A stretch of 64,000 nt of DNA from positions 1-64,000 of the forward strand of contig NZ_AUMJ01000028.1 of NCBI RefSeq assembly GCF_000430625.1. The letters run 5' to 3'. Positions 8,499 to 9,161 of the stretch are shown piece by piece; position 1 is the first letter of the stretch, and each line of letters begins with the position of its first letter. This stretch comes from Aneurinibacillus terranovensis DSM 18919 (lineage in GTDB: Bacteria > Bacillota > Bacilli > Aneurinibacillales > Aneurinibacillaceae). The translations under genes and the position numbers were made by a program. The notes under the pieces were generated by a model, which ran no database searches, had not been told where the DNA came from, and was given only the letters and a program-made list of their open reading frames with translations.

Positions 8499-8527
8499 TT
8501 GTTAATTACTATTTCTATATATATAAT
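8499..8527 (+). promoter_or_regulatory. Sigma-A promoter of the HesB-like gene
   Basis: TTGTTA (8499-8504), a 17-nt spacer and a perfect TATAAT (8522-8527) form a strong sigma-A promoter about 110 bp before the GTG start of the HesB-like gene. It shows that the gene is meant to be transcribed. Confidence 0.7.
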
Positions 8528-8636
8528 AGAAGAAAATAGAGGTTGTTTTCAACATCAATTACCGGCTATCCAGTCAGCAGATATCACACTTGCTTGCATG
8601 ATCGTATTGCACAGAAAAATGAAAGGGGAGATTTCC

Positions 8637-8954
8637 GTGCTGCAAGTAACAGAACGGGCAAAAAACGAAGTGAAAAACAGAGTAGCATCGCGGCGTTTAA
8701 CTGTACTCGGCATCCGGGAAGGCGGCTGAGGCTTCACGCTGCGTTTTGCCCTGGTTCAGGGCAACATACCAGGCACCTCTTTTGAATGCAGGGATAAAGA
8801 GGGAATAACTTATTGTATAGACAAAGACATTCAGGAAATGTACCCGGAGACTCTTACCCTTGATTATATGGTCAATCAGGGATTCCGGCTGTATACAAGC
8901 AGCCAGTATTTGGCGACACATATGCGAATTTTTCATGCGCTTGAAGAAGTATGA
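8637..8954 (+). CDS. HesB/IscA-like protein with in-frame UGA: candidate selenoprotein
   Basis: Read through one TGA (8727-8729), this frame gives 105 residues with the HesB-like (A-type Fe-S biogenesis) pattern: VTERAKNEV at the start, GIREGG-U-GFTLRF around the TGA, and GITYCID and LDYMVNQGFRLY later. The TGA is codon 31, aligned with the first conserved Cys of IscA (SGCSG). The C-terminal CGC pair of IscA is absent; other cysteines are C51 and C60. GTG start with GGGGAG six bases before; strong promoter at 8499. No other stop interrupts the 75 codons after the TGA, and a bSECIS-like hairpin follows. HesB-like selenoproteins are a known class. The alternative is a recent nonsense mutation. 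No Sec machinery genes are in the window. Confidence 0.65.
8746..8764 (+). promoter_or_regulatory. Putative bacterial SECIS hairpin
   Basis: TTGCCCT (8746-8752) pairs perfectly with AGGGCAA (8758-8764) around the loop GGTTC. The apical loop starts 23 nt after the TGA and its first two bases are G. Published bSECIS rules ask for a distance of about 16-37 nt, a small loop and a G among the first two loop bases; all are met. The function is inferred. Confidence 0.5.
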
Positions 8955-8962
8955 AACCTATA

Positions 8963-9161
8963 CTGAGAAAAACTCGCGGGCGTTGCCGCTCGTCCTTTTT
9001 CTGCAGGGTAGCGAAACGGCCGCTTAGTGACCGGAAGGTCGGACCGACAAAACATCCGGGTACCTCAATGATGGAGACAATTGTCGGTCTGATCGACCTT
9101 CCGGCCACACGCTCCACATCGAAAAAGCAACGTTCGGCACACTCCCGCGAGTTTTTCTCAG
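8963..9161. repeat. 199-bp imperfect inverted repeat (MITE-like or structured RNA)
   Basis: Perfect 18-bp ends (8963-8980 CTGAGAAAAACTCGCGGG, complement at 9144-9161) are followed by further paired blocks: TGCCG 8984/9135, CTTTTTC 8995/9121, CCGGAAGGTCG 9031/9094 and GACCGACA 9042/9082. The arms differ between blocks. I see no target-site duplication and no convincing ORF. It begins 8 bp after the HesB-like stop codon. Confidence 0.7.

Follow-up and report, generated by a model that had tools for sequence, protein, structure and literature searches.

The locus considered here raises the question of whether a short reading frame with a TGA codon in its first third is a gene broken by a nonsense mutation or a gene for a selenoprotein. 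The sequence-only reading of the window, by which we mean the whole stretch of 64,000 nucleotides that was analysed, had described a HesB-like frame of 105 codons at 8637–8954 whose sole internal stop is the TGA of codon 31. The frame exists as described, is free of frameshifts and ends at a second TGA (8952–8954). Its elements are as follows.

8637..8954, + strand: predicted selenocysteine (Sec)-containing IscA/HesB-like gene, GTG start, 105 codons plus stop
8727..8729, + strand: codon 31, a TGA predicted to encode selenocysteine; Sec-minus orthologues have TGC
8624..8630, + strand: Shine-Dalgarno sequence AGGGGAG, ending 6 nt 5' of the GTG; read from sequence
8499..8527, + strand: possible sigma-70-type promoter TTGTTA-17-TATAAT, 10/12 matches
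8746..8764, + strand: bacterial SECIS-like hairpin, stem 8746–8753 / 8757–8764, triloop GTT 8754–8756
8787..8789, + strand: Cys51 codon; Cys present in every member of the Aneurinibacillus clade, rare elsewhere
8814..8816, + strand: Cys60 codon; Cys present in every member of the Aneurinibacillus clade, rare elsewhere
8976..8993, + strand: terminator-like stem-loop followed by a T run

The ribosome-binding site proposed in the sequence-only reading was retained, and alignment placed the same start residue in the homologues. The promoter, which had been called strong, was kept as a possible one, given that promoter-type matches were not enriched over shuffled sequence (3 found, 2.0 expected). 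According to their translations, the 5' neighbour is a divergent folE, and the 3' neighbours are a gene for a HAD-type hydrolase and then a ubiD-like gene. Directly 3' of the gene lies an element of ~199 bp (8963–9161) bounded by 21-bp terminal inverted repeats (CTGAGAAAAACTCGCGGG...). Its repeat end recurs on other contigs of the genome (L007, L012, L014 and L015); a multicopy element resembling a MITE or REP is therefore probable.

The case for selenocysteine had been made to hinge on selB and selC, and selA, selB, selC and selD were all found in the genome (4.25 Mb in 98 contigs, completeness given as 100%). SelB scored 338 bits against a cut-off of 242, and the tRNA-Sec, with anticodon TCA, scored 64 bits against 47. 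The selD gene carries an in-frame TGA of its own, making SelD itself a TGA-containing selenoprotein, and it adjoins selA beside an apparent selU/ybbB gene. The order on that contig (C10, locus L096) is tufA, selU-like, selD(Sec), selA, near the str/S10 ribosomal genes; on a second contig (C13, locus L017), selB adjoins rpsJ-rplC and the tRNA-Sec gene adjoins a tyrosine recombinase. Among the 11 genomes of the Aneurinibacillus family, to which the window genome belongs, selA, selB and tRNA-Sec co-occur in four, namely the window genome (G000), G001, G009 and G010, and none of the three was detected in the other 7; selD without them, in a Cys form, is present in G005, G006 and G008. A pan-genome study of Aneurinibacillus lists selenocysteine synthase in A. 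terranovensis and A. tyrosinisolvens only (PMC7996765). Second tRNA-Sec-like matches in G067 and G081 (L092 and L091) were rejected, as ARAGORN assigned them to tRNA-Ser(UGA). These serine tRNAs exceed the Rfam gathering score for tRNA-Sec (50 bits vs 47), and Rfam matches to this model therefore require a check of the anticodon.

The gene itself is present in 6 of the 11 family genomes, the window genome and five others. The codon aligned with codon 31 is TGA in G000, G001 and G009, all of which possess selA, selB and tRNA-Sec, and TGC in G002, G004 and G006, which possess none of the three. Protein identity with the two other species that keep TGA is 55–63%. The window shares the order purU-folE-gene-ubiD with strain BoGa-3 and with A. 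aneurinilyticus, whose gene has TGC; in A. tyrosinisolvens, too, the gene is flanked by folE and ubiD. As the order is kept around Sec and Cys forms, these are positional orthologues at one locus. An alignment-based search of contigs returned three named records, from A. aneurinilyticus, A. tyrosinisolvens and Aneurinibacillus sp. Ricciae_BoGa-3; a search of genome contigs with the single window protein gave no match. No homologues were found on plasmids or phages, nor did the PHROGs search return any.

A profile search over 399 genomes of the class added 34 genomes with weaker relatives. Six of these carry one TGA each, in every case exactly at codon 31 (AGUGF twice, GGUSC, GGUSS, GGUSA and GGUGT), and all six have a tRNA-Sec, the one component of the machinery covered by the search there. 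Among the Cys-bearing class genomes, a tRNA-Sec was found in 1 of 28, namely G285. Over the sampled genomes, tRNA-Sec accompanies 9/9 TGA-form genomes vs 1/31 Cys-form genomes (Fisher p = 3.7e-8, a value that ignores relatedness), and the TGA forms span five families of Bacilli. At this position the homologues have either a Cys codon or TGA, the latter having been seen solely where tRNA-Sec is present. That a TGA had fallen on this codon by chance, which the sequence-only reading had still allowed for, is excluded by its retention in two other species and in six more distant genes of Bacilli. Sec users do not require the gene, because G285 has a tRNA-Sec yet uses Cys in its window-type gene, and G010 is Sec-plus and lacks the gene.

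A SECIS just 3' of the TGA, with a small apical loop containing G, is a criterion for selenoprotein genes, and the hairpin at 8746–8764 has this form. The three Sec orthologues of the family share TTGCCCTG-GTT-CAGGGCAA or TCGCCCTG-GTY-CAGGGCGA, that is, an 8-bp stem closed by a three-base triloop starting with G (GUY), whose loop lies 24 nt after the TGA. One stem pair is compensatory among them (U-A vs C-G), and same-residue codons are identical at 4/4 positions in the stem vs 10/41 elsewhere (p = 0.007). The free energy of the Sec forms ranges from -12 to -17 kcal/mol; within the window, the minimum free energy of the hairpin is mildly unusual (z -1.0 to -1.95). Of 2,079 TGA triplets in the window, that at 8727 alone is followed by such a hairpin. 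The same 8-bp, GUY-triloop hairpin follows the Sec codon of selD in G000, G001, G009 and G010 and is absent from the two Cys-SelD genes examined. SelD is a different protein, and its hairpin loop is placed 33 nt after the TGA, as opposed to 24 in the window gene.

In the corresponding region, two Cys orthologues fold no more stably than shuffled sequence. At the SECIS position, the TGC orthologue of G004 (L023, 1600–1637) retains a hairpin of 7 bp (UCUCCCU-UAUUC-AGGGAGA, z -2.4); the loop of this hairpin does not start with G, and it is possibly a fossil SECIS. Most of the other TGA genes of Bacilli have a different loop, UGGAU at +28, and stem changes among the genes with this loop (GGUUC/GAACC to GGCUC/GAGCC) preserve pairing; the stem of G033 carries a bulge. 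No Rfam model matches the hairpin.

Taken at a probability of about 0.94, our reading is that the gene encodes a 105-residue selenoprotein of IscA/HesB fold in which TGA codon 31 specifies selenocysteine. Under translation table 11 the codon is nevertheless a stop, and a nonsense mutation followed by decay of the downstream half would yield a pseudogene. Decay of this kind does occur among relatives: a paralogue in G285 (L093, C1:568367–568663) carries Cys at the site and is interrupted by a TAA, and this true pseudogene serves as a contrast case. In the window gene, by comparison, the codon conservation that the sequence-only reading had asked for after the TGA was found. Differences between G000 and G009 in this part number 21/11/40 at codon positions 1/2/3 (p = 1e-4), and other pairs within the family agree. 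This third-position bias, read from sequence comparison, indicates that purifying selection acts on the codons 3' of the TGA and that the tail is not decaying; in family comparisons, conservation is no better for the codons 5' of the TGA than for those 3' of it. With frameshifts and other stops absent, and TGA kept at codon 31 in three species of the Aneurinibacillus family and six further Bacilli, a pseudogene is very improbable. Sec-free read-through is possible in principle, and near-cognate decoding or a variant code could place Trp, Cys or Arg at the UGA. TGA is, however, an ordinary stop here, ending 10 of the 47 window frames of at least 200 codons as well as the gene itself, the exchange partner at position 31 is always Cys, and TGA was seen in tRNA-Sec-positive genomes alone; such decoding is just as improbable as a pseudogene. 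The UGA might also act mainly as a selenium-sensing switch, giving a 30-residue peptide at low selenium and the full protein at high selenium. Every Sec codon may behave in part like this, but the 30-residue stub carries no conservation signal of its own, which makes a switch as the main function highly doubtful.

On the selenoprotein reading, we infer that selenium is inserted at residue 31 as follows. SelD would make selenophosphate, with which SelA would convert Ser-tRNA(Sec) into Sec-tRNA(Sec). SelB would then deliver the charged tRNA to UGA codon 31 by binding the downstream 8-bp GUY-triloop hairpin, and translation would continue to the terminal UGA, where the protein would end.

As to what kind of protein this is, an AlphaFold model (pLDDT 82, pTM 0.76) was used in a fold search, which returned IscA, SufA and YneR with Z scores of 9–10; searching the PDB with a sequence profile yielded nothing meaningful. 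Codon 31 had been claimed to align with the first Fe-S cluster cysteine of IscA, and alignment with E. coli IscA (SGCSG) bears this out. The C-terminal CGC was likewise said to be missing, and indeed none of the 40 homologues has the CxC. The only position at which all 40 carry Cys or Sec is residue 31; Cys51 and Cys60 each occur in 7/40, six of these being the Aneurinibacillus clade. The Pfam family PF01521 (Fe-S_biosyn) matches all six family members (best E 1.4e-7), the window protein scoring 26.1 bits vs a gathering threshold of 26.3.

With the A-type carriers IscA, SufA and ErpA (PF01521) the window protein shares the fold and the position of the first cysteine, and one may ask whether it is simply such a carrier, with Sec merely in place of one of the three cluster cysteines. 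It differs from them in lacking the C-terminal CxC, and in the A-type carrier family the two C-terminal cysteines form a highly conserved motif (PMC7144353). Because the motif is gone and Sec31 is the sole thiol or selenol common to the 40 homologues, the window protein is likely not a classical three-cysteine A-type carrier; the genome moreover holds two matches of NF038090/IscA type that are better (best E 1.5e-16). We therefore regard the classical carrier as an unlikely explanation and favour a selenoprotein whose single conserved selenol serves otherwise. As a tentative working hypothesis, drawn from the fold and the one invariant residue, a metal or Fe-S cluster might be bound by one selenolate per subunit of an oligomer. 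From the same two features, the selenol could alternatively be a redox or sulfur/selenium-handling centre.

The window gene represents a new subfamily among the HesB/IscA-like selenoproteins already known, for which both Sec and Cys forms exist (PMC1794560, PMC13188914). It resembles the HesB-like selenoprotein TIGR01911 (HesB_rel_seleno) in being a small protein of IscA/HesB type whose Sec lies close to the first cluster cysteine. That type has the motif UxGP, whereas the window family has GGU(G/S), with U-G/S-F/M, and the window protein gave no match to TIGR01911 at E<=1. The best curated model, both for the window protein and for 5/6 distant Sec relatives, is NF038090 (IscA_HesB_Se), with 22.2 bits for the window protein and 23–43 bits for the relatives vs a cut-off of 85; over the 399 genomes of the class, no match exceeded this cut-off. 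The closer TGA-bearing matches to NF038090, L112 (G063) and L124 (G026), are complete IscA/ErpA-like proteins that contain GGUSGF and a C-terminal CGCGSSF. In both, the TGA stands at the first of the three cluster cysteines and CGCGSSF is intact. The earlier judgement that a subfamily without CGC is unusual is thereby supported, as the curated models of HesB-like selenoproteins do not recognise the window protein.

UGGP-type Sec genes also occur in Bacilli (L100, L101, L103 and L107). G021 and G061 each hold one gene of this type and one of the window type, and the latter therefore forms a line of its own. An inventory from 2026 that covers 119 families of prokaryotic selenoproteins contains UxGP as its only HesB type (PMC13188914), and the literature searched, outside which most subscription journals lie, yielded no paper on NF038090 or on the window-type subfamily. 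On balance, we lean slightly towards a previously unlisted subfamily, present in at least five families of Bacilli, with an IscA fold that lacks the C-terminal cluster ligands and one invariant Sec/Cys used beyond classical Fe-S carriage, e.g., in selenolate metal binding or in redox or selenium handling.

In the protein tree, the family members group together in a single clade (100/99), within which the Cys forms constitute one group (98/95) and the Sec forms lie outside it; well-supported forks are few and the rooting inside the family clade is weak. Since selA, selB and tRNA-Sec are absent from the genus of the Cys forms, and G004 has a possible fossil hairpin, a change from Sec to Cys upon loss of the machinery is suggested as the simplest reading of these sequences.

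The window-type subfamily is not captured by any NCBIfam model of June 2026, and as it is missing both from these models and from the inventory, its genes will probably be overlooked or annotated as truncated. The hairpin common to two genes of one genome offers a simple SelB-SECIS pair for study. The Aneurinibacillus family represents a clean natural experiment, in which one locus has Sec where the machinery is present and Cys where it is absent, and this Sec/Cys pair allows the contribution of Sec to an IscA-fold protein with one conserved chalcogen to be tested.
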